From assembly GCF_019104765.1 (NCBI RefSeq), contig NZ_JAHRXJ010000010.1, positions 1 through 64,000 of the forward strand: a DNA stretch of 64,000 nt, in the 5' to 3' direction. The position numbers were made by a program, and so were the translations under genes. A model generated the notes under the pieces. It was not told the origin of the DNA. It made no database searches and worked only from the letters and a program-made list of their open reading frames with translations. Positions 6,660-39,893 of the stretch are shown here, piece after piece (position 1 is the stretch's first letter; every line of letters begins with the position of its first letter). The stretch is from Synechococcus sp. HK05 (GTDB lineage: Bacteria; Cyanobacteriota; Cyanobacteriia; PCC-6307; Cyanobiaceae).

Positions 6660-6662
6660 CGC

Positions 6663-7111: not shown

Positions 7112-7245
7112 CACCGCCTGGCCAGTGCATCCACTCTGGCGCCCGCAACGTCTCCTGGGCTGCTTGCCATCGCCATAACCCAACTCCAGCGAACGGCGCA
7201 AGGGTGAAACCACGGGGAATGCTCCACGCAGTTGCGCCCCTCCCC

Positions 7246-8184: not shown

Positions 8185-8214
8185 TTCACCACCGGAGAAT
8201 GCGCGGAGAACAAC

Positions 8215-8244
8215 CCCCAGGGGTAAGTCACCCCTGGGGATTTT
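8215..8244 (+). terminator. Rho-independent terminator
   Basis: A perfect 10-bp stem (CCCCAGGGGT / ACCCCTGGGG) around a 5-base loop, followed by ATTTT, just after the sigma-like gene. Confidence 0.8.
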
Positions 8245-8301
8245 GCTGCTGTGGTGCAACTCGTGGTTGTGTTGCTACAGCGGGGTGATCGGCGAAGGGT
8301 G

Positions 8302-9096
8302 ATGACCCCGGACGACTTGCGCTGCCAGATCCAGACGTTGCAGCAGACGATTGAGCACCTTCTGGAGGGCTGGACTCTGGTGGTTTGCTCCAGTCATCAA
8401 CGCTTTGTGGACACCGCAGCGTTGCTCTTACCGGCGTTGCGGTTCACCTCCCATTCCACAGCCGAATGCTTGGCGTTGGCCCTGCCCAGCGACGGCAAGT
8501 TGCTGGTGCTCTGTGATGACGACGGCGCCGATGGCGGGGCCGTGGAATTGATCGCACAAATGCGCGAGCGCCATGGTGCAGAACGCTGTCGCTTTCTCCT
8601 CTGCCTCGACGCAGACGTCGCCGCCTCACGCCTGGTGCACCTCTGGCGTCTGCGCCCCGATGGCCTCAGCTGCCGTGAGCGCTGCGGCAGTGGCCGCCTC
8701 TTGCAGTGCATTGCCGTTCTCCTGCGCAACGGCCGCTACGAAGACCCTCACCTCTCCGATCGCCTGCGGCAGCTGTTTGCTGATGTCACGCCCGCCAGTG
8801 AAGGCGTCGGGCTGACCCTCAAAGAGGAGCGCATCGTGCGGATGGTGGCGGGCGGCCGCAGTAGCCGCGAGATCGGCGCACAACTGGTGATGCGGGCTGA
8901 TTCGGTGCGCAAGGTGTTCTGCGACCTCTACGACAAAACAGGCGCCTCCGGTAGAAGCGCCTTGCTGATCTGGGGCCTGGAGCATGGGGTGCTCAAGCAG
9001 CAAGATCTCGCCTCTCAGCTGCGCACGCCACGGCCGAAAGGGAGAGCCGCCGCGGGAGGTGGCAGCAAGCGCCAGAGCCGGGCAACACATCGCTGA
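8302..9096 (+). CDS. LuxR-type response-regulator-like transcription factor
   Basis: A 264-residue predicted regulator. Residues about 20-110 look like a receiver-type fold (LVVCSSHQRFVDTAAL, LLVLCDDDGADGG), but the canonical phosphorylation Asp context is not clear. Residues about 185-245 form a LuxR/NarL helix-turn-helix (LTLKEERIVRMVAGGRSSRE, IGAQLVMRADSVRKVFCDLY). A basic Gly/Arg-rich tail follows. The ATG at 8302 gives the natural start. The 3' end overlaps the opposite-strand gene at 8993-9448. It probably regulates element genes. Confidence 0.7.
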   Translation: MTPDDLRCQIQTLQQTIEHLLEGWTLVVCSSHQRFVDTAALLLPALRFTSHSTAECLALALPSDGKLLVLCDDDGADGGAVELIAQMRERHGAERCRFLLCLDADVAASRLVHLWRLRPDGLSCRERCGSGRLLQCIAVLLRNGRYEDPHLSDRLRQLFADVTPASEGVGLTLKEERIVRMVAGGRSSREIGAQLVMRADSVRKVFCDLYDKTGASGRSALLIWGLEHGVLKQQDLASQLRTPRPKGRAAAGGGSKRQSRATHR

Positions 9097-9448
9097 GTCG
9101 TTCAGCCGCAAGCAGGGCATCGAGCTCGATGATTTGCACTGCCTCACGCTGACGGGGCAACCAACCGGCGAGCAGGCCGCGATCACCAAGGGGCAGCGGC
9201 TTGGGGAGATCGAGCCGTTGGCCGAGGAACGGCAACCAGCGCTCGAGGCCATCGGCCTCACGCCAGGGCTCAAAGCTGGCCACCTCCACCAGCTGCTTGA
9301 GCGTGGTTTCGCCGTAGCTGAGCGAGGTGAGATACATCACGTCCTTGAGTTGCTCGGCCTCAAGGGGAAGCGGCATCCAGAAGCCGCGATCGGCGGCGTT
9401 CTCCAGGGCATCGCGGTGGTGGTGGGTGAGCAGAACCTTTGTGGTCAT
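8993..9448 (-). CDS. Hypothetical protein, convergent with the LuxR-type gene
   Basis: A 151-residue frame starting MTTKVLLTHHHRDALENAAD, with a composed N-terminal half (FWMPLPLEAEQLKDVMYLTS) that reads like a real protein. The last about 35 residues overlap the LuxR-type gene antisense and are Arg/Ala/Cys-rich, so the natural stop may have been lost. No family is recognised. Phased TGTGGG repeats lie upstream at 9504-9572 and may control it. Confidence 0.5.
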   Translation of the reverse strand: MTTKVLLTHHHRDALENAADRGFWMPLPLEAEQLKDVMYLTSLSYGETTLKQLVEVASFEPWREADGLERWLPFLGQRLDLPKPLPLGDRGLLAGWLPRQREAVQIIELDALLAAERLSDVLPGSGACCHLPRRLSLSAVACAAERRDLAA

Positions 9449-9503
9449 GGCAGCGAGGAATCACTGCACCGGTTCTGGCTTTGAGGCCGCGGTTTGCACC
9501 GCC

Positions 9504-9572
9504 CACAGCTGTGGGCTCACCTACCCCACAGGTGTGGGATCAGCGCGTCACAGATGTGGGATGAGTGTGGGC
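9504..9572 (+). promoter_or_regulatory. Phased TGTGGG repeats, possible operators
   Basis: Four TGTGGG motifs begin at 9510, 9533, 9555 and 9566. The spacing is 23, 22 and 11 bp, so all lie on one face of the helix. The first three sit in a longer unit (CACAG-N-TGTGGG-N-TCA). They are upstream of the minus-strand gene starting at 9448. The rest of 9449-9743 holds nothing convincing except a GC-rich hairpin near 9698-9712. Confidence 0.4.
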
Positions 9573-9743
9573 GATCAGTTGGCGACATCAAGTCGCGATG
9601 GGCGATTTCACGGAACGGGGTGTGGCTCAAGCGCGCCATTCCCTCAGCCTTTCTTCCAGTGCCACACCCTCCAGCGAAGCCCCAATCCCACCCAAAAGGG
9701 GGCCACGCCCCCCTCGGAACCCTTGGGGAGTTGCGAGCTGTTC

Positions 9744-9962
9744 ATGCCTGTTGTGTTGCGCGGGGCCGCCATCGGCGGCGTGTTGGCTCTGGTGGTGCAG
9801 GTGTGCGGGCCCACACCGCTCGGGGCAGTGGTGCGTGGGACGTTGATGCAACCGATTCAGGCCAGCCAATCGACTGCAGTGACAGAAATCCAGACGGACC
9901 TCCATAGCCTCCAGTCCCTGCCATTTTCTCCATGCCACGACGCTGTCTGCGCCGGCCGATGA
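9744..9962 (+). CDS. Small one-helix protein coupled to a sigma-like gene
   Basis: A 72-residue product with an N-terminal hydrophobic segment (GAAIGGVLALVVQVCG), a predicted signal anchor or lipoprotein-like helix, and a hydrophilic tail. Its TGA overlaps the ATG of the sigma-like gene (ATGA), so the two are translationally coupled. That position is often taken by anti-sigma factors, but nothing in the tail identifies one. No family recognised. Confidence 0.45.
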   Translation: MPVVLRGAAIGGVLALVVQVCGPTPLGAVVRGTLMQPIQASQSTAVTEIQTDLHSLQSLPFSPCHDAVCAGR

Positions 9963-10372
9963 CCAGTGAACAGCGAGCCTTTGCCTGTCAACATCTGGGC
10001 CTGGCGCATCAACAGGCGCACCGCTTTGCTCGACGCTGGTCGATGTCGGTTGATGACCTGCTCGGCCCTGCTTATGAGGGTCTGTGCAAGGGCGCAATCG
10101 GCTTTGATCCAGAGCTTGGGCATCGCCCATCCAGCTATCTCGTCCCCAAGGTGAAGGGCGAGTTGCTGCATTACATGCGCGACACCGGTTTTTCGTTGCG
10201 CATCAGCCACCGGCTGCGGGAGCTGTGGATCAAGGCCCGTCGATCGGTGGCTCAGGGCCTCAGTGATCAGCAGATCGCCGATCAGCTCCAGGTGCCGCTT
10301 GAGCGTTGGCTGGAGTGCCGCCGCGCCTGCGGACAACGTCCAATTCCGCTGCATGAACTCCAGCGCGATTGA
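9959..10372 (+). CDS. Short sigma-70-like protein
   Basis: A 137-residue protein resembling sigma-70 region 2 (HLGLAHQQAHRFARRWSMSV, DDLLGPAYEGLCKGAIGFDP) and part of region 3 (LSDQQIADQLQVPLERWLEC). Region 4, which binds the -35 element, is missing. The second sigma-like gene of the element, it overlaps the upstream small membrane protein gene by four bases. It could act as a partial sigma factor, or as a regulator derived from one. Confidence 0.6.
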   Translation: MTSEQRAFACQHLGLAHQQAHRFARRWSMSVDDLLGPAYEGLCKGAIGFDPELGHRPSSYLVPKVKGELLHYMRDTGFSLRISHRLRELWIKARRSVAQGLSDQQIADQLQVPLERWLECRRACGQRPIPLHELQRD

Positions 10373-10437
10373 GCTGCAAGGCATTCAGCCGGTTTTTACA
10401 GACGTCCCCCATAGCCTCTCGTTAGTCGCCCTTGCTT

Positions 10438-11610
10438 ATGGGTTCAGCCAAACACCGCCACCAACCATCCCGTCATCTCCCTGGCAGTGGACATCAACCG
10501 GTTACAAATAACGAACAAGACCGCGAACTGCTGCGGTTCAACGTGCGTCTGGCCAAGGCCCGTCAGGCCCAGGCCGACACCAACCGGATCGAACGCAAGG
10601 CCTTTCGCGAGCACGCCCGCGTGGAAAACGCCGTGGCTGCCTACACCCGCGAACTGTGTTCTCTCCTGGATGAGCGGGGATTCACTCAGGGCGTCCAGCT
10701 CTCCCGCATCCCGGAGGGCGGTGAGTCCGTGTTGATCGTGCAGCTCAGTGACTTGCACTTCAACGAGCGCGTTGAACTCCCCTCCAACCGCTACGACTTC
10801 ACCGTCGCGGCGCAGCGCCTGGCCAAGCTGGCTCAGCGTGTAAAGCAGCTGGGCAAGAGCTACGGCGCCCGCAAGGTGGTCGTTGCCTGTTTGGGGGATT
10901 TCCTCAACAGCGATCGCCGTCTCGACGAGTTGCTCAGCAACAGCACCAACCGCTCCAAGGCCACACTCCTGGCGGCGGACATCCTGCGGGCGTTTCTGCT
11001 CGATCTACGCGAGCAGTTCCAGGTCGAGGTGTACGGAATCACCGGCAATGAAAGCCGCGTGAACAAAGAGCTCGGCTGGAGCGATGAACTCGCCACCGAC
11101 AGCTACGACCTGATGATCTACGAGATCCTCAAGCGCGGCTTTGCCGGCACCGATGGCATCGCCTTCTGCGGCTTCCGGGCGAATGAGCTGTTGTTTGAGG
11201 TAATGGGGCGGACGTTCCTGTGCCTGCACGGCCACCAGATCGGCGCGAACGTGCAGAAGTCCGTGCAGGAAATCGCCGGCAAGTACGCCGCCCAAGGCAT
11301 CACAGTGGACTACACGCTGTTCGGCCACCTGCACGCCAGCGCCATCGGCGACTACCACGCGCGCAATGCCTCGCTGGTGGGCAGCAACGCGTACTCCGAG
11401 GCGGGACTGAACTTCTGCAGCAAGGCCGCCCAGAACGTCCACATCGTGACCGGTGCGAAAGGCACGGGCGCCATTGATGGCGTGAAGGTCGACCTGCAGG
11501 ACGTGACCGGCATCGAGCCCTATCCCTTTGCCGCCGAATGGGAGGCCTACTGCCCCAAGAGCGAGCGCAAACTCCACACCCCTTCTGTCGTTTATCAGGT
11601 TGTCGTCTGA
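10438..11610 (+). CDS. Phage-like metallophosphoesterase
   Basis: A 390-residue calcineurin-like phosphoesterase, probably a nuclease or phosphodiesterase. Metal-binding motifs appear in order: QLSDLHFNE (D-x-H), CLGDFLNSDR (GD), ITGNESR (normally GNH), CLHGHQIG and LFGHLHAS. The His-to-Glu change in the third motif recurs in phage-encoded members. A basic coiled N-terminal region (about residues 25-75) precedes the domain. The ATG at 10438 is chosen. The stop overlaps the next start by one base. A role in DNA processing is inferred from the family and context only. Confidence 0.7.
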   Translation: MGSAKHRHQPSRHLPGSGHQPVTNNEQDRELLRFNVRLAKARQAQADTNRIERKAFREHARVENAVAAYTRELCSLLDERGFTQGVQLSRIPEGGESVLIVQLSDLHFNERVELPSNRYDFTVAAQRLAKLAQRVKQLGKSYGARKVVVACLGDFLNSDRRLDELLSNSTNRSKATLLAADILRAFLLDLREQFQVEVYGITGNESRVNKELGWSDELATDSYDLMIYEILKRGFAGTDGIAFCGFRANELLFEVMGRTFLCLHGHQIGANVQKSVQEIAGKYAAQGITVDYTLFGHLHASAIGDYHARNASLVGSNAYSEAGLNFCSKAAQNVHIVTGAKGTGAIDGVKVDLQDVTGIEPYPFAAEWEAYCPKSERKLHTPSVVYQVVV

Positions 11611-28478: not shown

Positions 28479-29027
28479 TCAAAAGATGGCGTACTTGAGC
28501 CCAAGCCCCACCAGCAGAATGCCGCCCAGGGTCTCGAGATGAGCGGAATAGCGAACAGGAAAGTTCTTGGCAACCAGCAACCCCAGCAGCACAAAGAGAA
28601 ACGCGCTCGATCCGATCACAAAAGCGTAAGGAAGCAACGACTTTCCAGCCAGTGAGAGGGTCACGCCGACGGCCGCATTATCGATGCTCGTGGCAATCGA
28701 AACAAGCAGGATTTTCAAGAAGCGCTGCTTCTTCTTTTTCGCCACTTCAGTAGAGACCTGCGGATCCACGGATAGGCCATTACTGATCATGCGCGCACCG
28801 ATGCAACCCAGCACCAAGAAGATGGCCCAGTGCTGATAGGCGCCGACATAACTTTTCGTGAGATCGCCCAGAATAAATCCAAGAGCAATAGCCAAGGCTC
28901 CAGACAACGCCGCAGAAGCCCCATAGGACAAAGCCCGCCGCCGCGAGAAGCGCCTGGCGCCCATGGCGAAGGCCGCACAAAAGGTATCGATATTCAAGAC
29001 GCAGGCAAAAGCAATCAACTCAAACAT
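28479..29027 (-). CDS. mntP: Manganese efflux protein MntP family
   Basis: A 182-residue, six-helix membrane protein of the MntP (DUF204/YebN) family. The two pseudo-repeats are visible: LNIDTFCAAFAMGA and SIATSIDNAAVGVTLSLA, each with the conserved Asp, then LETLGGILLVGLGLKY. MntP exports Mn2+. A yybP-ykoY-type manganese riboswitch was looked for upstream and not seen. Confidence 0.75.
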   Translation of the reverse strand: MFELIAFACVLNIDTFCAAFAMGARRFSRRRALSYGASAALSGALAIALGFILGDLTKSYVGAYQHWAIFLVLGCIGARMISNGLSVDPQVSTEVAKKKKQRFLKILLVSIATSIDNAAVGVTLSLAGKSLLPYAFVIGSSAFLFVLLGLLVAKNFPVRYSAHLETLGGILLVGLGLKYAIF

Positions 29028-29143: not shown

Positions 29144-29815
29144 TCAGCCCGATGTGATGAGGTTAACCACCGCCGAGATAACAGTGGAATAAAACAAAAA
29201 ACTGACAACCGAGTGAAACAACACCACACGCCTGACGGAGCTGTCTTCGAGGTTGGTATCACTCATCGCATAGGTGAGGCCAACAGCGTAAGAAACGTAC
29301 AGGAAATCAGTAAATTCCGGTTCATCCGAGCCTGCAAACACGAAACCCTGAGGATTGGGGCCATCAGCAGACGGCAGCGGATTGAGACTAAAATATTTTT
29401 TAGCGTAATAAATGGCGAAGCCATTATGCATTTGCAGCCAAACCGCAAACAATGAGGCGAAATAGACCAGCGTGCGCCATTCCTGCGGCAACACTGAGTC
29501 GCCGCTATGCACATCACGCACGCAGAGGCTGAGGAGGCCCACGCTGATAAACGTGAAGATCACGGTGCGCTCGAGCAGCAGAGCCCGGCTCGGCAGCCAA
29601 CGGCCAAAGATCTCGCGCGTTTCGCGTGCGTTCACACGAAACGACTCTAGAAAATAGATCGTTTGGTCAAACACGATTGCCGCCAGAAACCCAATCGGGA
29701 AGGCCTCTCGCAAACGGATTGGCTCCATCAGCACGAGGGTGACCACGATCCCCACGGACAAGGCGCGCAGGAAGCGACTGCTATCGCGGAAACAGGCTGG
29801 ATGAGATGCACTCAC
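29144..29815 (-). CDS. DUF1345 membrane protein, copy 1
   Basis: A 223-residue membrane protein with about five helices. Typical DUF1345 stretches are TREIFGRWLPSRALLLERTV, FAIYYAKKYFSLNP and FTDFLYVSYAVGLTYAMSDT. It is a paralog of the protein at 38719-39387; both lie beside the metal-ATPase cluster. GTG at 29815 removes a poorly supported upstream extension. Function unknown. Confidence 0.7.
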   Translation of the reverse strand: MSASHPACFRDSSRFLRALSVGIVVTLVLMEPIRLREAFPIGFLAAIVFDQTIYFLESFRVNARETREIFGRWLPSRALLLERTVIFTFISVGLLSLCVRDVHSGDSVLPQEWRTLVYFASLFAVWLQMHNGFAIYYAKKYFSLNPLPSADGPNPQGFVFAGSDEPEFTDFLYVSYAVGLTYAMSDTNLEDSSVRRVVLFHSVVSFLFYSTVISAVVNLITSG

Positions 29816-29850
29816 GGCACAATCGCCTCGCGAGCGGCACACTAACCAGC

Positions 29851-30462
29851 ATGACCTCTCCTGCCAGCCCCTCTGAAGTGATCCAAGCCCTGCAGCAGGG
29901 CAATGAACGCTTCCGCGAGGCGCGATCGATCCACCCCCATGCCAGCCAAGCTCGGTTGCACGAGCTGGAGACGGGCCAAACACCTCAGGCCGCCGTGCTC
30001 ACCTGCTCGGACTCGCGCGTGGCCGTTGAACTGTTATTCGACAGCGGCTTCGGTGATTTATTCGTGATCCGCAACGCCGGTAACGCCTCCACACCCGGCA
30101 GCCTCGCTTCCGTGGAATACGCCGTGGAGGCCCTGAATGTGCCGGTGGTGGTGGTGATGAGCCACTCCGGTTGCGGAGCGGTGGGGGCCGCCTGCGCTCC
30201 CGAGCACCTGCTCACACCCACGCTGATGGATCACGTGGGGCACATTCGCAACGGGCTCAAGGCCGGTGGATTAGCGCTTGTACCTCCGGTTGATCTATCC
30301 GCGGCGTACAACATCCATTCGAAAATCACAGCACGCGAGCTGATCAACACCAGTGCCTTGCTGCGCGAGCGCATTGAGAGCGGGCAGCTTGAGGTGCATG
30401 CGGCCTGTTTTGAGCTCCACACCCTCGCCGTTACGTGGCTGGGAGTGGAGACCGGGGCTTGA
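29851..30462 (+). CDS. Beta-carbonic anhydrase
   Basis: A 203-residue zinc enzyme interconverting CO2 and bicarbonate. Zinc ligands can be read: Cys in VLTCSDSRV (Asp-Arg dyad included) and His/Cys in MSHSGCGAV. No signal peptide, so it acts in the cytoplasm; it is not a carboxysomal CsoSCA. The C-terminal ELHTLAVTWLG is usual. The ATG at 29851 is chosen. The 3' end overlaps the neighbouring minus-strand gene by 32 bp. Confidence 0.85.
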   Translation: MTSPASPSEVIQALQQGNERFREARSIHPHASQARLHELETGQTPQAAVLTCSDSRVAVELLFDSGFGDLFVIRNAGNASTPGSLASVEYAVEALNVPVVVVMSHSGCGAVGAACAPEHLLTPTLMDHVGHIRNGLKAGGLALVPPVDLSAAYNIHSKITARELINTSALLRERIESGQLEVHAACFELHTLAVTWLGVETGA

Positions 30463-31339
30463 TCCGGCTCACCAGTTGACGGCGGCTCCAACTGCTGGCC
30501 CAATCAATCTTGCGGCCCACCGAAGCGCCCAATCGGGTGCCCAGGCGAGCGCCCCACTCCTGGCCACCACTGAGACCTCGGCCTAATCCACCCATCACCG
30601 TTTCGGTGACGCGCTCACCGGCTTGATCCTCACCAAGCGCGACCAGCCAACTCAGCCGGCCAACCCCCTTGGCACGGCCATGGTTCTGAATCAGATCTTC
30701 CACGGCTTGGCCGGCCACGATGGAGCCCAGGGTCATTCCCGCCACGGCTCCGGCGGGCCCAGCCAAGGCCGCACCAATGGCGCCACCGGTGCTCCAACCA
30801 GCCTCCTCGCCGAGCTTGCCGCCGATCTTGCGGATGGAGATGGCCCCCAGATCGCCCTTGCGCAACGGGCTCTCGCCATCGGCCAGCTCGCCTCCAGCCA
30901 CGGATCCCACCACCGACCCCACCACAGCCCCAGCCGCTCCAGCCATCAAGCCGGCGCGCGGTCCAAGCAACCAAGCCCCCACCAGTCCAGCCCCTGTACC
31001 CAGCACCACCTGGCCCACCGCGGCTCCCACGATGTTTCCGCCGATCTGGCGGGTCATGCGTTCCCAGGGCGAATCGGTTATGGGGTCGTGGCGGCGCTGA
31101 TCCACCAGCGCGCAGCCGAGATCCGTGAGCGCCAGCTGCCAGCGCAGCTCAGAACAGCCGCTGGCCAGCTCAATCACCACACTGCGGCTGGCCTGCCGCC
31201 ATTGCACGTCCCGCACCCAGGCCTGAGCCGAAAGGGCTGCCACCAGATCCTCCACAACCGAGGCCGGCTGGTCAGCCGGGTAGCGCAGGCGCAGTCTCTG
31301 CGCTGTGGCGTGCATCAACTGACAAGGCAAGGCGTGCAC
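30431..31339 (-). CDS. HMA-like plus glycine-zipper protein
   Basis: A 302-residue protein. Residues about 10-75 look like a ferredoxin-fold HMA domain without the metal-binding CxxC (AQRLRLRYPADQP, then VRDVQWRQASRSVVIEL). The middle is extremely Gly/Ala-rich with glycine zippers (GGNIVGAAVGQVVLGTGAGL, GAAGAVVGSVVGSVAGGELA), which would insert into or permeabilise a membrane. Divergent from the DUF5132/HMA pair at 31458-32218. Function unknown; part of the P-type ATPase cluster. Confidence 0.55.
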   Translation of the reverse strand: MHALPCQLMHATAQRLRLRYPADQPASVVEDLVAALSAQAWVRDVQWRQASRSVVIELASGCSELRWQLALTDLGCALVDQRRHDPITDSPWERMTRQIGGNIVGAAVGQVVLGTGAGLVGAWLLGPRAGLMAGAAGAVVGSVVGSVAGGELADGESPLRKGDLGAISIRKIGGKLGEEAGWSTGGAIGAALAGPAGAVAGMTLGSIVAGQAVEDLIQNHGRAKGVGRLSWLVALGEDQAGERVTETVMGGLGRGLSGGQEWGARLGTRLGASVGRKIDWASSWSRRQLVSRIKPRSPLPAT

Positions 31340-31457
31340 CTGGGGCTCCCGATCGATGTGCCGACACGCACACCATGCTGCTCAATCCCGAGCGGAATGG
31401 AAGCGAGAGCCGCCAGCGAGCGTTACTCTTCGGGCGCAACATCCACTCTGATTCGTC

Positions 31458-31748
31458 ATGCTGGAGCTCGAGACTCTGCTGGCCTTCGGTCTCGGTGCCG
31501 GATTGATGGCTCTGGCCCCCGTGGTGGCAGCCGTGGCTGGAAAGGACAGCAAGATCACTGGCGCCGTGAGCGGCACCGGTCGCAGCATTACCAAGCAAGG
31601 ACTGAAACTTGGTCTGGTGGTGGCCGACAAAACCTCCAGCGCCGTGAAGGGCATCGGCCGTGGCCTCGCTGAGGTGGGCGAGAGCTTCACCGATGTGCTC
31701 GCCGAAGCCCGCGCCGATCTGGCTCAGCCCAGCAAAGCGGCCAAGTGA
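31458..31748 (+). CDS. DUF5132 small membrane protein, copy 1
   Basis: A 96-residue protein with an N-terminal hydrophobic helix (LLAFGLGAGLMALAPVVAAV) and an amphipathic tail ending GESFTDVLAEARADL. The layout resembles mycobacterial PacL proteins (DUF1490), which sit beside P-type ATPases CtpC, CtpG and CtpV and scaffold metal efflux. Its stop overlaps the next gene start (GTGA). Paralog of 33303-33635. Confidence 0.6.
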   Translation: MLELETLLAFGLGAGLMALAPVVAAVAGKDSKITGAVSGTGRSITKQGLKLGLVVADKTSSAVKGIGRGLAEVGESFTDVLAEARADLAQPSKAAK

Positions 31749-32218
31749 GTCGATCCGGAGCCTTGAGCGCACTGGTGATTCGTCATCAGCTGCCCCATCG
31801 GCTCCGGATCCACTGCACCACTGAAATCAGCGCCGCTCAGCTGGAGCTGATCCGCAACCAGCTGGAGCGGATCCACCCTGGTGTGGAGGTGAGGGCTACA
31901 GCTCACCGCCACGGCGTGGTGATCAGCCATCATCCCGACCGGGTGGTCTGCCCAGCTTTGGCTGCGGATCTGCTTCAGGCGGCCTTGGATGCCCAACAGC
32001 TGCATGGTCCGGCGACGCCACCCACCCCGCTGGAGCTCTGGTTGGGCGAGACGCGGCAGGGATCCATCAAGGTGTTGATGGCGTTGGCGATCGCCGGTTG
32101 GGCCCTGCCCATCCTGCCTGGCACTCCGTTTTTTCTGATGGCGTGGTGGCTGGGTTGGCGGCCCGAGAAGTCAGAGGAAGCGCAACTCGAGCCAGCCGCT
32201 CTCCAGCCGGGCACCTGA
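31745..32218 (+). CDS. HMA-like protein with C-terminal membrane helices
   Basis: A 157-residue protein. Residues about 10-85 form a Cys-free HMA-like domain starting VIRHQLPHRLRIH. A hydrophobic hairpin follows (IKVLMALAIAGWALPILPGT, PFFLMAWWLGW). The gene at 36163-36684 has the same architecture. GTG start coupled to the DUF5132 gene; its 3' end overlaps the minus-strand ArsA-like gene by 48 bp. Confidence 0.55.
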   Translation: MSRSGALSALVIRHQLPHRLRIHCTTEISAAQLELIRNQLERIHPGVEVRATAHRHGVVISHHPDRVVCPALAADLLQAALDAQQLHGPATPPTPLELWLGETRQGSIKVLMALAIAGWALPILPGTPFFLMAWWLGWRPEKSEEAQLEPAALQPGT

Positions 32219-33208
32219 GCAGGTTTTGCCCGCAAGGCTTGCCGGAACATCCACCAGGCGCCGCTGCCCTCCCACCAGCAACACCACTGTGGTGCCGCTC
32301 TGCTGCACGTCGAGCTCGGCCTTGATCACACCAGGCAGGGGCAGCCTCAGCGTGCCTGCGGCGGCATCCACAGCCCCCTCCAGCCCAAACGCCTCCACTT
32401 GCAACAGGGCTGCCACAGCATCTGGAGCAAAGGGATGGGCGAGCTCCACGCCGGGCAGTTGCTCGGGCCACCAATCGGGCCGTTGTGCCAACACCGTTGC
32501 GGCCGCCGGGCCATGCAAGCCCAGGCGCGTGGGCATGAAACCGCGCAAGCTGTAGCAGCTCATCCGCTGCCGCAGCAGCTCGGCCTTGGGGCCAGCACAC
32601 TCCAGCGCCAGGCTCAGTTGCCAAGGCCCCCCGGGGGCGAGCAAAGCCGCCATGTGCTCCAGCCGGCTGCGCCAGCGCTGATCCAATCGCAAGCTTGCGG
32701 AGGATGGCAAACGCAGGCGCAGCACCAACTCCAGGCTGGCCAGGGATTGGCGGGTCTGATCCCACCAACTCAACAGGGGCTCCAGCAGGGTTTCCACCAG
32801 GGAGGGCCCGGTGCGAGCCAGCTCCAGCAAAGCCAGGGCCTCAGCCGGCGCGGGCAGCAGCACCGTGAGCTCAGCAGCCTTCTCCAGCGCTTCTGCGAGC
32901 ACCAAACAGCGCAGAAGCATGTCAACCCCGGGTAGAGGCGGAATCAACAAAGGCTGCACGGCCTGCAGCTCCAGCAATTGCAACCAATCGGCCAAACGCG
33001 GCTCGAGCTGCTGCCAAAGCGCGAGCGCATCAGGAACGGCGCTGTAGGTGCGCAGCTCAAGCGCAGGCTCTACCCCGGCAAGCTGCGAGAGCCACTGCTC
33101 GCCACTGAGATCGAGCACCGCACCGCGGGGCTGTGCGGCGACAACCGCACAGGCCAGGGAGGGCAGGTCAGCGCTCACAAAGTGCAAACCCAATCCCGGT
33201 AAATCCAT
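32171..33208 (-). CDS. ArsA/Get3-like protein without P-loop
   Basis: A 345-residue protein with ArsA/Get3 features but no ATP-binding loop. The segment PPLPGVDMLLRCLVLAEALE followed by TVLLPAPAEALALLEL matches the switch and helical region of ArsA, and the last 80 residues (LRLPLPGVIKAELDVQQSG to the end) match the ArsA_HSP20-like domain. The N-terminus (LGLHFVSADLPS) replaces the Walker A region. It is probably a non-catalytic relative. Divergent from the second DUF5132 gene. Confidence 0.5.
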   Translation of the reverse strand: MDLPGLGLHFVSADLPSLACAVVAAQPRGAVLDLSGEQWLSQLAGVEPALELRTYSAVPDALALWQQLEPRLADWLQLLELQAVQPLLIPPLPGVDMLLRCLVLAEALEKAAELTVLLPAPAEALALLELARTGPSLVETLLEPLLSWWDQTRQSLASLELVLRLRLPSSASLRLDQRWRSRLEHMAALLAPGGPWQLSLALECAGPKAELLRQRMSCYSLRGFMPTRLGLHGPAAATVLAQRPDWWPEQLPGVELAHPFAPDAVAALLQVEAFGLEGAVDAAAGTLRLPLPGVIKAELDVQQSGTTVVLLVGGQRRLVDVPASLAGKTCSGARLESGWLELRFL

Positions 33209-33302
33209 TGATAACTACTTGTTTGCTGATGTGTGCCGCGGTGCAGCGTCAGACCTGCAGATTCGCTTTACAGTGCGTCGAATTCTGGCAAGGCGCCTCC
33301 CC

Positions 33303-33635
33303 ATGTTCGAGTTCGAAACCGTCCTCGCCTTTGGGGTTGGCGCCAGTCTCGTTGCACTCGCTCCCATGGTGCGTCGCATGGGCAATCACCAGCTCGGCGA
33401 CTCGATGAGCAGCGTGGGCAAATCCATGGCCAAGAACGGCATCAAGGTGGGCGTCACCGTGGCTGGGGTGGCTGGCACCGCCGCCCGCAACGTGGCCCGC
33501 ACCGCAGCGGAAGCAGCCGAGTCGCTCGTGGATCTGGTGGCTGAAGCGAAATCCGAGATGGACGACACCGCCACGGACACCGACGCCAGCCCTGCAGCCA
33601 GCGAGAAGGCCATCACGAAGGTGAAGGTCGACTGA
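33303..33635 (+). CDS. DUF5132 small membrane protein, copy 2
   Basis: A 110-residue paralog of the protein at 31458-31748: hydrophobic start (TVLAFGVGASLVALAPMVRR), middle helix (KNGIKVGVTVAGVAGTAARN) and acidic tail (AAESLVDLVAEAKSEMDD). It is the first gene of the ATPase operon, 49 bp before the P-type ATPase. The position next to the ATPase supports a PacL-like accessory role. Confidence 0.6.
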   Translation: MFEFETVLAFGVGASLVALAPMVRRMGNHQLGDSMSSVGKSMAKNGIKVGVTVAGVAGTAARNVARTAAEAAESLVDLVAEAKSEMDDTATDTDASPAASEKAITKVKVD

Positions 33636-33684
33636 GCGCGCCAACGCTCCCTGCCTGTCGCTGATCCCTTCTCCCCCTGCTGCC

Positions 33685-36159
33685 GTGCTCGCTGAAACGC
33701 ATCGTCCCACTCACCTCTCGGTTGTACCCGTGGCGCGGGGCGGCCAATCGGCTGTGGGTTACACCGTGGAGCAGGTGCTGCACCACAGCCCACGGCGGGT
33801 GCGCTTCCGCGTGGGCGGCAGCAGCAGCAGCTGGCCCCAGTTGGAGCAGGCCTTGGGCCAGGCCAGCGAGGTGAAGCATGTCCGCCTCAACAGCGTGGCT
33901 GGATGCTGCGTGGTGGAATTCGAGCGTCAGGCCGGGATTGATCCCCTGCAATGGCTGAAACAGCTGCCTGGAGCGCTGCCAGCCCTTGAAAAGCTGGCCG
34001 CCCAACCCAGCGGCCAAGCGGCCAGCAAACCAGCGGCCAACAATGCTGAAGGCGAGGACGACGACAGCTTCGTTCCGAGCCGCATCATCCTGCCGGTGAG
34101 CTCCCTGGCCCTGGCCCTGCTGGCCGGCCCGCTCGCCCTGCCGCCGTTGGCGGTGGCCGGCTTCATCCTTGTATCGGCCCACCTGAGCTTCAAGCGCGCC
34201 TGGCAAGGCCTGAAGGAAGAACGGAAGATCAACGTTGACTTCCTCGATGCCCTAGCGGTGACCCTCCACAGCCTGGAGGGCTTCCTGGTGGGCCCGGCGA
34301 TGATGATCACCATGATCGAGGGCGGTGAAGCGGTGCGCGACGCCACCCAGCGCATCGCCCACTCGGCGAACACCGATCTGCTCGCCAGCCTGCAGACCGA
34401 TGTGCGCCTGCTGGTGGATGGCGCCGAGGTGATCGTGCCCAGCACAAGCCTGCAGGCGGGCGATCGCATCGCCCTCTTCCCCGGCGATCAGATACCGGTG
34501 GACGGCCGCATCGACAGCGGCGAGGGTTCACTGGATGTGGTGAAGCTCACCGGTGAATCCGTCCCCCGCCACGCCGGCCCCGGCGATGAAGTGCTGGCGG
34601 GCTTCATCCTGCTGGAGGGCAACCTCGTGGTGGAAACCCAGGCCGTGGGCGAAGCCACCCGGGTGGGTCAGATCACCGCGATGATCGAATCGGCCCCCGT
34701 GTACGACACCCGCGTGGGCAACGTGGCCGGCAAGGTAGCCAACCGCTTCGTGTTGCCCACGTTGGCGCTGGCTGGCCTGTCGCTGCTGCTGAGCGGCGGC
34801 AACATCGCCCAAGCCGCCTCGCTGCTCATGTTCGATCTGGGCACCGGCCTGCGCGTGTCCGTGCCCACGGCGATCATGGCCGCCCTCACCCGCGCCGGCA
34901 GCCAGGGCCTCTTGATCCGCAGCGGCCGCTCCCTCGAGCAGCTGGTGGATATCGATGTGGTGGTGTTCGATAAGACCGGCACCCTCACCCAGGGCCACCC
35001 CTCCGTGGTGCATGTAGAAGTGGTGAGCGGCGCCCACTCGATCAACAAGCTGGTGCAGCTTGCTGCCTCAGCGGAGCAGGGCCTCAACCACCCGGTGGCC
35101 GAGGCGATCGTGAAGCACGCCGAAGAGCTCGGCGTGAGTGCCGATGAATGCGAGGCCTGGGATTACCGCATCGGTCGGGGCGTCGCCGCCACGATCCATG
35201 GCCACCAGGTGCTGGTGGGCAACGCCAAGCTCCTGCGCGAAGAAAACCTCGAGCCCGCCACGCCGAGCGTGGATCCCGAGCTGGAAACCGCTACCCCGGT
35301 GTATCTGGCGGTGGATGGCACCGTGGTGGCGGTGATCTACGCCGCCGATGCGCTGCGGCCCGACAGCCAGGCGATGGTGGCTGAGCTGCACCGCCGCGGC
35401 ATTCAGGCCCACATGCTCACCGGTGATGTGAGCAGCGTGGCCCACGCCGTAGCCAAGCGCCTGGGCCTCCGGCCTGAGGAAGTGCACGCCGATGCCCTCC
35501 CCGATGAGAAGGCGAAGCTGGTGCAACAACTGAGCCAGCAGGGCCACAAGGTGGCCTTCGTGGGCGACGGCATCAACGACTCCGCAGCCCTTGCCTACGC
35601 CGATGTGTCGATTTCGTTTGCCTCCGGAAGCGATCTGGCCCGCGAAACGGCCGACATCGTGCTCACCAACGACAAGGTGTCGGATCTGATCGTGGCCCAG
35701 GATTTGGCCCGCGAAACCTTCGGCCTTGTGAAGCAGAACATCGGCATCGTGGGTGTGCCGAACCTGTCCGCCCTCGTGCTGGGCACCTTCCTGCCGGTGA
35801 GCCCGATCGCCGCCGTGTTGCTCAACAACGGCTCCTGCCTGGTGGCTGCCGCCAACGCCATGCGCGTGCTGGGGTTCAAAGGCAAGCAACTGGCCCCAGC
35901 CGCTGCCAACCCTGCACCCGCCGCGCAAGACAAAGCCCCAGCGGTTGTAAAGCCGGTGGCTGTTCAACAACCCACCGTGGAACACCCCCAAGCCATCAGC
36001 CTGGCGGCGCTCTCCAAGCGACTGGGTGTTGCCCACCAGAGCATCACCGCACGGCGCAAGCGCGGCGATTTCGGCAGCTGGATTCAATCGCTCGATCCAG
36101 CAGGCATTGCCTGGTCGTATTGCGACCGCTCCAACACCTACCGCCAAGCCAGCGCTTGA
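33685..36159 (+). CDS. P1B-like P-type ATPase with C-terminal HTH-like tail
   Basis: An 824-residue cation pump. A Cys-free HMA-like domain (about residues 25-95; HSPRRVRFRV) is followed by membrane helices, the actuator TGES (289-292), phosphorylation motif DKTGTLTQ (Asp429), a HP motif in EQGLNHPVAEAIVK, and GDGINDSAAL (627-636). The membrane motif where many P1B pumps have CPC reads LLMFDLGTGLRVSVPTA, so metal choice is unclear. The last 60 residues add a helix-turn-helix-like segment (ISLAALSKRLGVAHQSITAR). GTG start. Confidence 0.85.
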   Translation: MLAETHRPTHLSVVPVARGGQSAVGYTVEQVLHHSPRRVRFRVGGSSSSWPQLEQALGQASEVKHVRLNSVAGCCVVEFERQAGIDPLQWLKQLPGALPALEKLAAQPSGQAASKPAANNAEGEDDDSFVPSRIILPVSSLALALLAGPLALPPLAVAGFILVSAHLSFKRAWQGLKEERKINVDFLDALAVTLHSLEGFLVGPAMMITMIEGGEAVRDATQRIAHSANTDLLASLQTDVRLLVDGAEVIVPSTSLQAGDRIALFPGDQIPVDGRIDSGEGSLDVVKLTGESVPRHAGPGDEVLAGFILLEGNLVVETQAVGEATRVGQITAMIESAPVYDTRVGNVAGKVANRFVLPTLALAGLSLLLSGGNIAQAASLLMFDLGTGLRVSVPTAIMAALTRAGSQGLLIRSGRSLEQLVDIDVVVFDKTGTLTQGHPSVVHVEVVSGAHSINKLVQLAASAEQGLNHPVAEAIVKHAEELGVSADECEAWDYRIGRGVAATIHGHQVLVGNAKLLREENLEPATPSVDPELETATPVYLAVDGTVVAVIYAADALRPDSQAMVAELHRRGIQAHMLTGDVSSVAHAVAKRLGLRPEEVHADALPDEKAKLVQQLSQQGHKVAFVGDGINDSAALAYADVSISFASGSDLARETADIVLTNDKVSDLIVAQDLARETFGLVKQNIGIVGVPNLSALVLGTFLPVSPIAAVLLNNGSCLVAAANAMRVLGFKGKQLAPAAANPAPAAQDKAPAVVKPVAVQQPTVEHPQAISLAALSKRLGVAHQSITARRKRGDFGSWIQSLDPAGIAWSYCDRSNTYRQASA

Positions 36160-36162
36160 TCG

Positions 36163-36684
36163 ATGCTGGCCAGCTGCGCTGAACTGGTGCATTCCCTGCC
36201 GGGGCGGTGGCGCTACCGCCTGCGCAGCGCCACACCGATTCAGTGGGATCAACTGCAGCGGGAACTGGAAGCGGCCCTGCAATCTTCAGCCTGGCGCTGG
36301 CGCCTCAATCGCCACTGCAGCACGCTGCTGCTCGAAGCCAAAGCCGCAGACCACGATCAACAGCAAGAGGGCTGGCAAACGCTGGTGGCCGCCCTGGCGC
36401 GCAGTGGGGCCACCCCACCTGAGCCCGAGGTGGTGCAGGTGAAGGTGCAGGTGGTGCGCGATCAGCCCTCCTGCGTGAAGCGTTGGCTGCTCGCACCGGC
36501 CAATCTGATCAGCTTTCTGATGGCCAGCGGATTGCTCAGCCTGGCCGCGGTGCTTCTGCTGGGGGGAATTGTGGGGTTAATCCTGCCGCTGGCCCCTGGC
36601 TTGCCCCTGCTGCTCCTGGCCTTTGTGCTGGTGGAAACAGCGTTCAAGCTGCGGCGCCCCTTCACCACGGCCACGGCAGCCTGA
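36163..36684 (+). CDS. HMA-like protein with two membrane helices
   Basis: A 173-residue protein with a Cys-free HMA-like domain (VHSLPGRWRYRLRSATPIQW) and two C-terminal helices (LISFLMASGLLSLAAVLLLG, VGLILPLAPGLPLLLLAFVL). Same build as 31745-32218. It starts three bases after the ATPase stop and is separated by one base from the next gene, so it belongs to the operon. Possible membrane accessory subunit. Confidence 0.6.
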   Translation: MLASCAELVHSLPGRWRYRLRSATPIQWDQLQRELEAALQSSAWRWRLNRHCSTLLLEAKAADHDQQQEGWQTLVAALARSGATPPEPEVVQVKVQVVRDQPSCVKRWLLAPANLISFLMASGLLSLAAVLLLGGIVGLILPLAPGLPLLLLAFVLVETAFKLRRPFTTATAA

Positions 36685-36685
36685 G

Positions 36686-38722
36686 GTGGGAGTGATCGCA
36701 CCGTCTCCGATCTGGGAGATCCGCAGCGATCTGCCGGGCCGGGTCAGGCTGCGCTGCAGCGGGCTCGGTGACTCAGAGGCGCTGCGACGCCACTGCCGCA
36801 CCGTGCTCACGGGCTGTCACTGGCTGGAAGGCTTCCGCATCAACCCCATGGCCGGAAGCCTCAGCCTGCGCTTCCCGGCCAAACGTCGAGGGGGGCTGGA
36901 CGCGCTCCTGCAGCTGGCGCTCAACCTGCCCCATGGCTTCACGGCGCTTCAAGACATCAGCCAGCGCGCCCCCCGCAGCCACCGAACTCTGCGCCACGCG
37001 GCCTTCTGCGCTGGTGTTCTGGGGGTGGATTGGTTGGTGGGGGTGCCACTGCTGGCATTGCAGGGGGCGACAGCCCTCTTGATGCTGCCCGTGGTGCTGG
37101 AGCTGCTTCGCACCTTGCGGCAACGGCGCATCGTGCCTGTGGAGGCATTGGATCTCGGCTTCAGCGCTGTGTTGCTGCAGCAAGGGCTGCCGCGCGAGGC
37201 ACTGATGGATCTCGCCCTCGACGACGGCAGCAAGATCCTGCAGGAGGTGAGCCACCACGAACTGAGCCGGGCTGACTACCGCAATCTGATCAGCAGGCTC
37301 GCCGAGCAGGAAACGGTGCGCACGGCACCCGATGGGATGGAGCAACCGATCGGCGAGCTCCACCAGGGAGCACGCATCCAGTTGCAGAGCGGTGATCCGC
37401 TCTTCGTTCCCTGCCGGATCATCCAAGGTGAACTGGTGGCCATCAATCGCCAACTCACGGGCGACTGGCATCCGCGGCAATACAACCAAGGCGATGCGCT
37501 GGAGCCGGGTTGCCTGGTGCTCTCCGGCTCCGCTGAGCTGGAGGTGCTGCAGGCCTTCGCCGACTGCCCCCTCTTCCAACTGCCGCCACCGCCGCCAGAG
37601 CATGGAAATGCGTTGACACGGATGGCGGGCCAGCGCTTGATCAATCCGCTGCTCTTCGCCCTGGGCAGCTTCTGGGCCCTACGCGGTTCCAGCGAGCAAG
37701 CCCTGGCCGCCTTCCAGTTCAATCCCATCAACGACTGGGAAACCAGCCGCAATGCCAACCGCCTGGCGGCAGCCGCCGAGCTTCGCCTGCATGGCATCAA
37801 CATCGCCAACCCCAACGTGTTGAGCGATCTGGGGCGCATCCAGCGGCTGTTGATCAGCCACAGCTGCGCAGAGCGGCTGAATCAGATCCAGCTCAGCGAA
37901 GAACTCGCGCCCGAGAGCACGGTTCACCACGGCGACCTGGTCCGCATCCTCGCCGGCGTGCAGGCCTTCCTGGCGCAGGACAGCACCGTGGCGCTGTGCA
38001 ACGCACAGTTGGAGAACGTGATCGATCCAATGCCGGTGAAGCGGCTACAGCTGCACGATCTCAACCAGGAAGGATGGCAGGTTGAGCTTGAAGACGGTCG
38101 CCGCCTCCAGGTGCGGAACGGCGGCGAGCGCAACCCCTCGGGATTGAGCAGAAGTGTGGTGGTGGAGCCCCTGGAATTTCGCGAGGGGGAGCAATGCCTG
38201 GGCTGGGTGAAGCTCAAACGCACCCCGAATCAAGGTTGGATGCAGGTGCGCCAGCAGCTCGAGGAGCTCGGTATCGCTGTAACCATCGTGGGCCGCTCGG
38301 TGGATGATCCAGCGGAGGCCAGCCAACGGTTGCAGCGGCTGGAGGCTTACCAGGCCGAAGGAGAACGGGTGGGCTACCTCGGTGATGTGATCCACGACCT
38401 CCCAGCCCTGGCCCGAGCCGATGTGGCCATCGGCCTCGATTTCGATGAAGCCGGAATGCTCACCAACAAGCTGTGTGATCTCTCCTTGAGCCGTGATCCC
38501 CAGTGGCTGCCACGGCTGGTGGTGCTGAGCCGCAGCCTCCAACGCACCGCCGATGGCAATGCCGTGATGATCGGCCTCACCCATGTGCTCTCATCGGTGG
38601 CCACCGCAGGGCTGGCAATCAGCCCCCTGCAAACGGTGCTCCTGGCCGACATCCCCTTGCTGCTGGCGGAGCTGCGCAACATCAACAGCTTCCGCAGCCA
38701 CACCCGCCAGGCCTCGAGCTAA
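36686..38722 (+). CDS. Degenerate P-type ATPase-like protein
   Basis: A 678-residue protein with the overall order of a P1B ATPase but lacking its catalytic core residues. It starts with a Cys-free HMA-like domain (SDLPGRVRLRCSG), has membrane helices, an actuator-like part (CRIIQGELVAINRQLTGDWH in place of TGES), a segment SDLGRIQRLLISHSC where DKTGT is expected, and GDVIHDLPALARADVAIGLD in place of GDGINDSPAL. It probably cannot be phosphorylated. Start GTG at 36686 or 36692. Confidence 0.7.
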   Translation: MGVIAPSPIWEIRSDLPGRVRLRCSGLGDSEALRRHCRTVLTGCHWLEGFRINPMAGSLSLRFPAKRRGGLDALLQLALNLPHGFTALQDISQRAPRSHRTLRHAAFCAGVLGVDWLVGVPLLALQGATALLMLPVVLELLRTLRQRRIVPVEALDLGFSAVLLQQGLPREALMDLALDDGSKILQEVSHHELSRADYRNLISRLAEQETVRTAPDGMEQPIGELHQGARIQLQSGDPLFVPCRIIQGELVAINRQLTGDWHPRQYNQGDALEPGCLVLSGSAELEVLQAFADCPLFQLPPPPPEHGNALTRMAGQRLINPLLFALGSFWALRGSSEQALAAFQFNPINDWETSRNANRLAAAAELRLHGINIANPNVLSDLGRIQRLLISHSCAERLNQIQLSEELAPESTVHHGDLVRILAGVQAFLAQDSTVALCNAQLENVIDPMPVKRLQLHDLNQEGWQVELEDGRRLQVRNGGERNPSGLSRSVVVEPLEFREGEQCLGWVKLKRTPNQGWMQVRQQLEELGIAVTIVGRSVDDPAEASQRLQRLEAYQAEGERVGYLGDVIHDLPALARADVAIGLDFDEAGMLTNKLCDLSLSRDPQWLPRLVVLSRSLQRTADGNAVMIGLTHVLSSVATAGLAISPLQTVLLADIPLLLAELRNINSFRSHTRQASS

Positions 38723-39387
38723 CTCACCATCAAGTTGGTGACCATACTGAAGATGGTGGAATAAAAGAGGAAGCTCACAATCGCCTGCAGCAATACAATC
38801 CGCCGAGCCAAGCCATCTTCCAGATCCACATCGCTCATCGCAAAGGTGAGCGCCACGGAATAGGCCACATACAGGAAGTCTGTAAACAATGGCTCATCAG
38901 TTCCAGGAAAGATAAACACCTGCGCCCCATCGCCATCAGCTGATGGCTGGGGATTGCCCGCGAAATACACCTTGGCGTAGTACACAGCGAAGCTGAGGTG
39001 CAATTCCAACCAGGTGGTGAACAGCGCCGCAAAAAACAAGCTGATGCGCAAGGGAGCAGGCAGCAACCCCTGCCCCGATTTCACATCGTGCACACAGAAG
39101 CTCAGCACCAACACGCTCAGGAAGGCCAGCAACACCGTGCGCTGCAACAGGCGGGCTCCATTGGGGCGCCAGGTGGAGAAGATCTCGCGGGTCCGCGCGG
39201 CATCCAACCGCAGCGAGGTCCGCACCATGCGCAGCAGATCGGCCAAGGTGGTGGCGAGAATCGCCAGGGTGAGCGCCTCAGCCGGGTGAAAGCGGGCCAC
39301 AAGACCCACCACCATCACCGCGGTTCCGAAGGCAAAGGCTCGCAGGCAACGAGCCAGATCCTCAAAGGCAACAGGATGCTTAGCCAT
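38719..39387 (-). CDS. DUF1345 membrane protein, copy 2
   Basis: A 222-residue paralog of 29144-29815: TREIFSTWRPNGARLLQRTV, FAVYYAKVYFAGNPQPSADG and FTDFLYVAYSVALTFAMSDV are closely matched. About five helices. The ATG at 39387 (MAKHPVAF) is chosen. The 3' end overlaps the pseudo-ATPase stop by four bases. Function unknown; repeated association with the cluster may be meaningful. Confidence 0.7.
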   Translation of the reverse strand: MAKHPVAFEDLARCLRAFAFGTAVMVVGLVARFHPAEALTLAILATTLADLLRMVRTSLRLDAARTREIFSTWRPNGARLLQRTVLLAFLSVLVLSFCVHDVKSGQGLLPAPLRISLFFAALFTTWLELHLSFAVYYAKVYFAGNPQPSADGDGAQVFIFPGTDEPLFTDFLYVAYSVALTFAMSDVDLEDGLARRIVLLQAIVSFLFYSTIFSMVTNLMVS

Positions 39388-39392
39388 CCGGT

Positions 39393-39893
39393 TCAGGCTC
39401 GGCTGATCCGCCAGCTGCTGCGCTGGCCAGGCCGCTGCATGCGGGAAAACTGCAGGCCCAGCCGAATGAAGCCAATCGAGCCATCCTCTAAAGGCTGAGC
39501 TGCGGGCAAGCGACGCACCTCCAATAGATCGCACAACGGGCGACTATCGAGCTCGATGCCGCTGCGCATCAGCGTCTCCAGAATCTCCAGGCGCTCGCGC
39601 AACAACCGCAGCTGGGCATAGCGGGCCGCCTCACCCCAGCTATCCACCATCGGAACCGGCAGAGCCTCCTGGCCGGGTTCATCAAAAACCAACTCCGCTG
39701 TGATCGGCTCCAGCGGCGCACCGGAGCCCACATGCGCCGCCAGCTGTTCGGCCTGATCAACGCTGAGCAGCGTGCGCATGCCACGCCGGACTGGCTGGAT
39801 CCCAAGCCGGCGCAGCAGCAAGAGCAGATCAACGCGGCTGATTCCCAGCTCCTGCTCAAGCTGGGAGAGGGGAACCAGGTCAGGCTGGGCCAC
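39393..39893 (-). CDS. Hypothetical protein with N-terminal HTH-like segment
   Basis: A 166-residue protein. Its N-terminus reads as a MerR/HTH-17-like helix-turn-helix (VPLSQLEQELGISRVDLLLL, LRRLGIQPVRRG), followed by a helical central part (EAARYAQLRLLRERLEILET) and a Gln/Arg-rich tail. It lies six bases upstream of the DUF1345 gene on the same strand, so the two are probably co-transcribed. Possible regulator; no family name assigned. Confidence 0.5.
   Translation of the reverse strand: MAQPDLVPLSQLEQELGISRVDLLLLLRRLGIQPVRRGMRTLLSVDQAEQLAAHVGSGAPLEPITAELVFDEPGQEALPVPMVDSWGEAARYAQLRLLRERLEILETLMRSGIELDSRPLCDLLEVRRLPAAQPLEDGSIGFIRLGLQFSRMQRPGQRSSWRISRA

Follow-up and report, generated by a model that had tools for sequence, protein, structure and literature searches.

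What does a P-type ATPase locus of the freshwater picocyanobacterium Synechococcus sp. HK05 transport, and how is it connected to the calcyanin-like gene at its edge? The stretch analysed, 64,000 nucleotides in length, is referred to here as the window; the locus occupies positions 30431–38722 and contains eight genes, g1–g8. The reading favoured here, to which we assign a probability of roughly 0.45, is that Cyanobiaceae have here a conserved module built around a cation pump, probably one for Ca2+ or Mn2+, and that this module is linked to calcyanin and to the chemistry of carbonate. The eight genes described in a first-pass annotation of this DNA were all confirmed as open reading frames by frame and domain searches. 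Ratios of nonsynonymous to synonymous substitution (dN/dS) between the window and four relatives were found to be 0.02–0.44 over all genes (0.18–0.30 for g8); these ratios are rough because many dS values are near 1. By this measure, all eight genes are under purifying selection. That annotation had not named the glycine-zipper gene g1 as calcyanin-like; with g1 so described, the likely biology shifts from general metal or envelope transport towards calcium and carbonate. The earlier observation is thus confirmed and extended, and its interpretation partly supported. The genes are the following:

30431–31339, minus strand: g1, calcyanin-like protein with an N-terminal HMA_2/CoBaHMA-type domain and three glycine-zipper blocks
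31458–31748, plus strand: g2, small DUF5132 membrane protein with a conserved E..E...D....A motif (PF17195 at 6.7e-4, below cut-off)
31745–32218, plus strand: g3, HMA-like domain with a two-helix DUF454-like tail (DUF454 at 6.5e-6, below cut-off)
32171–33208, minus strand: g4, Get3d-like protein with no visible P-loop and a C-terminal alpha-crystallin-type domain (ArsA_HSP20 at 3.2e-13)
33303–33635, plus strand: g5, second DUF5132 protein, its start inferred from relatives
33685–36159, plus strand: g6, P1B-6-like ATPase with active-looking motifs (TIGR01525, 476.8 bits)
35989–36159, plus strand: C-terminal accessory domain of g6, about 56 amino acids
36163–36684, plus strand: g7, HMA-like domain with a two-helix tail, a relative of g3 (hhalign g3–g7, 92.8%)
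36686–38722, plus strand: g8, pseudo-P-type ATPase with an HMA-like N-domain

The 302-residue g1 protein has no Pfam match and looks like a calcyanin by its architecture. Calcyanin, encoded by ccyA, is taken here to mark cyanobacteria that form intracellular amorphous calcium carbonate and to consist of an HMA-like basic N-domain (of the CoBaHMA type) followed by a triple C-terminal glycine zipper, and both parts are present in g1. On this definition, g1 is a putative calcyanin. In passages of the calcyanin literature, ccyA is assigned to the calcyanin family and linked to the formation of intracellular carbonate in Cyanobacteriota (PMC11773610), and no P-type ATPase is described in those passages as accompanying calcyanin. 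In Cyanobiaceae, g1 is embedded in a cluster of P-type ATPase, pseudo-ATPase, DUF5132 and carbonic anhydrase genes.

A g1 profile run against 388 genomes of the class, with the five best candidates per genome scored, matched 73 genomes. Relatives spanning the three zippers at E <= 1e-16, the threshold taken for a calcyanin-positive genome, were found in 24 of them from seven families, so that long relatives are present in six cyanobacterial families besides Cyanobiaceae; the remaining 49, including G404 and G344, gave weaker and mostly short matches and were excluded. Named hosts include records of Vulcanococcus, Cyanobium and Synechococcus lacustris. The aligned relatives have in common the three glycine-zipper blocks and a W...GET...G..GR tail, with an N-terminus that is either HMA-like or unrelated; the match in G165, G209, G248, G395 and G396 covers the three zippers (about residues 99–300 of 308) without the N-terminus. 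A wider profile was run on 73 chosen genomes, namely 48 with the g6-type ATPase but no long g1 relative and 25 of genus g81. G344 and G339 proved to hold broken long relatives, and G238, G341, G404 and G296 to hold shorter glycine-zipper relatives. No genome among the 25 of genus g81 exceeded 46 bits. These shorter proteins, encoded in ATPase-bearing genomes together with the differently built ones of loci L173 and L174, would fit a somewhat unlikely alternative, in which g1 is a parallel protein made of HMA_2 and glycine zippers, and no calcyanin, within a single architecture family of which only some members are mineral-related. An alignment that runs through all three zipper blocks and the tail, in relatives with or without the HMA-type N-domain, speaks against it and for a calcyanin-like g1.

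The N-terminal domain of g1 is one of five in the locus, the others being those of g3, g6, g7 and g8. All ten pairs of domain profiles match, with hhalign values of 66–96% (nine of the ten at 84% or above, and g1 against the other four at 92–96%), whereas none of 15 decoy pairings, made with profiles of g4, carbonic anhydrase and DUF1345, exceeds about 1%. Against distant N-domain profiles from calcyanin-like proteins and ATPases, nine of ten links are at 94% or above, the weak one (15.7%) being that of g3 to the distant calcyanin-like N-domains. Some of the distant relatives match Pfam HMA_2 (PF19991; 2.9e-10, above the cut-off, and 8e-6, below it). The window's own five domains resemble HMA_2 in having conserved basic residues and no CxxC, but either fall short of the Pfam cut-off or give no match (best g8, E 0.014); the basic motif without CxxC fits the CoBaHMA domain. 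From these profile matches, the five domains share a common origin and belong with HMA_2, and the proposal of the first-pass annotation that they are cysteine-free, HMA-like and linked by a shared signature is borne out. Its suggestion of an HMA-type fold also holds for g1, the model of which has an HMA-like fold at residues 1–80 with a predicted local distance difference test score (pLDDT) of 78–93. ATP7B copper domain and MerP structures were among the Foldseek matches (probability 1.0, TM 0.63–0.64 by target), with the caveat that no E-value was below 0.001 and that the top-ranked match was a protease and not an HMA domain. Structures were predicted for two of the five proteins, g1 (confident at its N-domain) and g8 (poor), and g3, g6 and g7 were assessed by profiles alone. 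The models are weak as wholes (mean pLDDT 55.4 and 62.9), and only the N-domain of g1 and the general fold of g8 were used.

The pump itself, g6, is by its motifs a P1B-6-like ATPase with an intact catalytic apparatus, belonging to a cyanobacterial branch in which both the HMA_2 (CoBaHMA-type) N-domain and membrane segment M4 are cysteine-free. DKTGT, TGES and GDGIND are intact and the domains are in P1B order. M4 (DLGTGLRVSVP) reads DLGTGLRVSVPT, which is invariant in 11 of 11 aligned rows, the window included; since DLGTG stands where a motif of the Cys/Ser-Pro-Cys type (CPx) would be expected, g6 is classed no further than P1B-like, within a cysteine-free branch. M6 reads NNGS in place of the P1B-6 HN motif, and HNGS is found in some cyanobacterial relatives. 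HN in TM6 is given as a feature of P1B-6 ATPases (PMC9374683). Aligned ATPases of other cyanobacterial families mostly have D[LF].TG in M4 and [HN]NG or NSG-like sequences in M6. Plasmid-borne P1B-6-like ATPases of Azospirillum and Arcobacter, which adjoin YtxH genes (in Azospirillum also HMA2), resemble g6 in the basic N-motif, the M4 aspartate and the M4/M6 pattern, but have SCA for its GTG in M4 (DYSCALKLATP) and HN for its NN in M6 (HNGT); because these distant relatives read DYSCALKLATP, it is the cyanobacterial branch that is without the M4 cysteine.

The C-terminal 56 residues of g6 form a small domain that is present in the ATPases of this branch (frames of at least 60 amino acids in the loci compared) and recurs in two HMA/glycine-zipper proteins, those of L173 (the same as L083; 1063–2046, E 8.5e-12) and L174 (1384–2454, E 4.3e-12), both of which are encoded near ATPases of this branch. 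It was found in no pseudo-ATPase of the loci compared, and no fitting Pfam family was found for it in the window. In one relative (L038 12786–15244, genome G134), the ATPase frame is broken near the C-terminus and the accessory domain lies in a different frame, which could be a sequencing error. The ATPases of three calcyanin-bearing genomes of family f16 (L119, L120 and L122) keep DKTGT and have SGEV for TGES and GEGIND for GDGIND, and are perhaps half-way to pseudo-ATPases. As a class-wide marker, FDLGTG(L)R was tried and rejected: it matched 13 of the 388 genomes, of which nine are Cyanobiaceae with the cluster, and three of the four others, all but G478, were inspected and hold no such ATPase.

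How closely is this pump tied to the calcyanin-like gene? An ATPase profile of 17 rows (A7) matched 72 of the 388 genomes at E <= 1e-140, with at most two candidates per genome scored, as also in the pseudo-ATPase search. Every one of the 24 genomes that have a long g1 relative also has the HMA_2 ATPase (in G395 the match crosses one stop codon), as do 48 of the 364 others (Fisher 7.5e-20, kinship ignored). The broken and short g1 relatives were left outside this count because the wider profile covered only the 73 chosen genomes. A fuller search was made in 48 genomes chosen from families with and without g1, scoring all first-look candidates in 40 and 22 candidates in eight. The ATPase reached at least 600 bits in all 21 genomes with g1 and in three of 27 without it; no match in the other 24 exceeded 417 bits, which is where other P-type ATPases score. 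The three are G339, with the broken calcyanin-like gene, and G296 and G404, with glycine-zipper proteins on the ATPase contig. Six genera hold genomes of both kinds. The contrast within genera g1, g34, g74, g175 and g81 agrees outright, and that within genus g85 agrees only once the broken relative of G339 is counted. In genera g34, g74, g85 and g175 a long distance separates the two genes, or they lie on different contigs; only these four are free of linkage, because genera g1 and g81 hold both genes in one cluster. A patchily distributed control family, MntP, was found in 8 of 21 and 5 of 27 of the same genomes (Fisher 0.12), a much looser association than that of the ATPase, and a control made imperfect by its behaviour in genus g74, as described below.

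The first-pass annotation had expected the genes to be conserved together; scattering in relatives was checked for, and gene order was found to be kept in many of them. The conserved block exceeds the eight genes, taking in a carbonic anhydrase gene and two DUF1345 genes on its flanks:

28479–29027, minus strand: MntP-family cation exporter (Pfam Mntp, 1.7e-29), adjoining the block and outside the conserved core
29144–29983, minus strand: DUF1345 membrane protein, copy 1 (PF07077, 5.4e-31), kept adjoining the cluster in relatives
29806–30462, plus strand: beta-carbonic anhydrase (PF00484, 4.9e-32)
38719–39534, minus strand: DUF1345 membrane protein, copy 2 (PF07077, 5.6e-29), kept in relatives

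The ATPase, a two-helix protein and the pseudo-ATPase are adjacent in 14 Cyanobiaceae genomes (G064, G134, G118, G137, G127, G144, G112, G105, G080, G473, G476, G493, G446 and G408) and in L088–L090, besides the window. A calcyanin-like gene lies within the ATPase cluster in the window, in relatives and in the distant L081, and g1 accompanies cluster genes in 12 loci (L037, L038, L049, L086–L090 and L092–L095), the L086 contig being too short to reveal the ATPase. The cluster occurs without g1 in G137 and four genomes of genus g5, and g1 is 365–400 kb distant in G473 and G476. Of the 20 Cyanobiaceae loci for which the flank on that side is present, 15 have carbonic anhydrase beside the cluster; it was not found in the stretch inspected in G105, G080, G473, G476 and G144.

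The last gene of the locus, g8, has no DKTGT, TGE or GDGxND and only weak matches to heavy-metal ATPase profiles. DKTGT, with the phosphorylated Asp, is missing in 18 of 18 aligned rows of its family, including two tandem copies elsewhere in the genome of the window (L031) and solitary copies in relatives. The g8 model resembles P1B ATPases (ZntA, 4umw; Foldseek 2.5e-23, TM-score 0.37–0.41), and ten Cyanobiaceae pseudo-ATPases form one clade in the tree (100/100; the branches are long, and the program gave a warning). On this comparison, g8 is a relative of g6 that has lost the catalytic motifs and is still under purifying selection. The two pseudo-ATPases claimed for the locus belong to different families: g8 is a P-type ATPase and g4 a Get3d-like protein. 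A family search found pseudo-ATPase matches better than 1e-10 in 12 of 151 genomes. Wide occurrence beyond Cyanobiaceae was considered and rejected, full-length profile matches in nine genomes of other families being DKTGT-bearing ATPases on inspection. The only pseudo-ATPase outside Cyanobiaceae among the loci inspected is that of a distant cyanobacterium (L081), in which the phosphorylated Asp is replaced by Ala (FAKTGT); the gene order at 2911–10906 is DUF5132, active-looking ATPase, calcyanin-like gene and pseudo-ATPase. This protein sits among active ATPases in the tree, so that its loss of Asp looks separate, and it is probably a second, independent pseudo-ATPase. The tandem copies mentioned above lie at L031 9631–11754 and 11981–14233 (contig C10, about 167.6–172.2 kb), downstream of genes that resemble, by eye, a branched-chain/urea-type ABC transporter. 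A CDF exporter gene lies near a solitary pseudo-ATPase (L036 357–1388).

What might such a module do? Of the cation or envelope transport proposed earlier, the part that stands is the cation-pump core, by the motifs and profile of g6 and its nearest solved structures. The ATPase would export a hard divalent cation from the cytosol or into a confined space, most likely Ca2+ and next Mn2+. These ions are favoured over Zn, Cd and Cu because thiol ligands have been lost, the partner is calcyanin-like, and carbonic anhydrase and GDT1 genes are neighbours. The basic HMA-like domains of g1, g3, g6, g7 and g8 may anchor the components to anionic lipid or to one another, g2 and g5 may be PacL-like membrane scaffolds, g8 may be a non-pumping partner or regulator, and carbonic anhydrase would set local bicarbonate/carbonate. 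In calcyanin genomes, the role of the module would be to provide or regulate the Ca2+ that goes into intracellular amorphous calcium carbonate. A bolder version appears unlikely to us: that calcyanin works with a dedicated cysteine-free Ca2+ pump of P1B type, and that in Cyanobiaceae a heteromer of pump and pseudo-ATPase on a DUF5132 scaffold is the missing calcium route of intracellular carbonate formation. Its annotation as a heavy-metal ATPase would be why such a pump has been missed so far. If true, one subunit of this P-type ATPase system would be a dead partner. A pump that carries a 'heavy metal' annotation, occurs in every one of the 24 genomes sampled that have a long calcyanin-like gene, and has a domain in common with glycine-zipper proteins, is a concrete candidate; the possible hosts are extended to picocyanobacteria of Vulcanococcus, Cyanobium and Synechococcus lacustris, and a pseudo-P-type ATPase family under selection is added.

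Several observations weigh against the tie to calcyanin and carbonate. Eight of the 17 rows of the A7 profile stem from g1-bearing genomes, and MntP is non-neutral in genus g74, being found in 4 of 4 genomes with g1 (G165, G183, G209 and G248) and 0 of 3 without (G196, G229 and G239). Four Cyanobiaceae of one genus retain the module and carbonic anhydrase without g1, and the S. lacustris loci and three others are without carbonic anhydrase in the stretch inspected. Confidence in the glycine-zipper part of the g1 model is too low to be of use. The ATPase type is found more widely than calcyanin (72 of 388 genomes), and its basic job is therefore not specific to calcium carbonate; since the pump is the wider of the two, calcyanin is best regarded as something added to a pump module that already existed. 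The nearby MntP gene and, elsewhere, a CDF exporter fit Mn or Zn equally. Finally, PacL with CtpC or CtpG, the best-studied systems of similar plan, deal with Zn and Cd and gave no Mn tolerance (PMC9374683, PMC13043812).

The last two points lead to the strongest rival, a possible if doubtful one, in which the locus is a platform for the efflux of transition metals (Zn, Cd, Mn), of the PacL–CtpC kind and with DUF5132 scaffolds, g1 being an extra scaffold and the link to calcium carbonate indirect. The effluxosomes of PacL with CtpC or CtpG (with DUF1490, or DUF6110 beside P1B-6, in Actinobacteria and others) likewise have a small membrane protein with an acidic/alanine motif next to a P1B-6-like ATPase. 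DUF1490/DUF6110 proteins are described as encoded next to P1B-6 pumps (PMC9374683). The nearest solved structures to g6 are Cu and Zn ATPases, and MntP and CDF exporters are nearby. Unlike those systems, the window has DUF5132 proteins, an M4 without CPC or SC, and additional calcyanin-like, Get3d-like and pseudo-ATPase genes. The lack of cysteine ligands in the N-domain motif and M4 of the cyanobacterial branch, the tight co-occurrence of the ATPase with the calcyanin-like gene, and the carbonic anhydrase within the block also speak for a calcyanin-linked module for Ca2+ or Mn2+ over a transition-metal platform.

A core resembling that of the window was observed on a plasmid of Gloeothece verrucosa PCC 7822 (L181 8965–17506), where ATPase, DUF1345, DUF5132 and HMA2 genes stand in a row. 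The ATPase is 55% identical to that of L127, a distant member. Unlike the window, the annotated genes of the plasmid stretch shown include no calcyanin, pseudo-ATPase or carbonic anhydrase, and the plasmid search returned no relative of the calcyanin-like protein of L074. After the DUF1345–DUF5132–HMA2 genes of this plasmid come genes for a lipid kinase and a short-chain dehydrogenase. They and the conserved basic residues of the five domains would suit a membrane-lipid or envelope module, in which HMA-like domains bind anionic lipids (a role assumed here for CoBaHMA domains) and the ATPase with DUF454/DUF1345 proteins remodels or moves lipids or keeps a compartment. This is improbable for an ATPase that is plainly of P1B type, with 476.8 bits to the heavy-metal profile, and no P4-type flippase.

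As to the small membrane proteins, the earlier naming of two DUF5132 proteins holds for the family and not for the window proteins themselves. These score 20.1 and 15.5 bits, under the Pfam cut-off of 25, whereas 18 of 22 aligned rows of their family match DUF5132 at E <= 1 (best 2.8e-18). The relatives have an acidic/alanine motif in common; DUF5132 is the only family common among the 22 rows, for which no DUF1490 or DUF6110 match was listed, and no C-terminal metal-binding motif was seen in their alignment by eye. Judged from relatives, g5 probably starts at 33303. The DUF454-like tails of g3 and g7 are weak and below cut-off.

The g4 protein has ArsA_HSP20 in its last 58 residues and, in this C-terminal alpha-crystallin-type domain, resembles Get3d (Nostoc All4481, Arabidopsis At1g26090). 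The matches to Get3d structures (3igf/8egk, 2.2e-9; 8elf, 1.6e-5) are confined to that domain, and no P-loop is visible in 12 of 12 aligned rows, the window included. This differs from Get3d, which retains the P-loop and hydrolyses ATP (PMC10248533).

An Rfam scan gave no match at gathering scores. Among the loci compared by tblastn, the MntP gene beside the block is unique to the window. MntP-like genes of genus g74 are divergent, and MntP lies near the ATPase in G214 (contig C2) and G296 (contig C134). A GDT1 divalent cation/proton antiporter gene adjoins the cluster in the four genus g5 genomes inspected and is near it in S. lacustris; the GDT1-family genes at or near the cluster in relatives are L045 12823–13431, L130 8751–9353, L131 7267–7866, L132 12816–13421 and L047 2411–3040. 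Genes g3 and g4 converge, with 48 bases shared by their 3' ends (32171–32218), and an overlap of 48, 61 or 21–26 bases is present in 10 of 10 relatives inspected.

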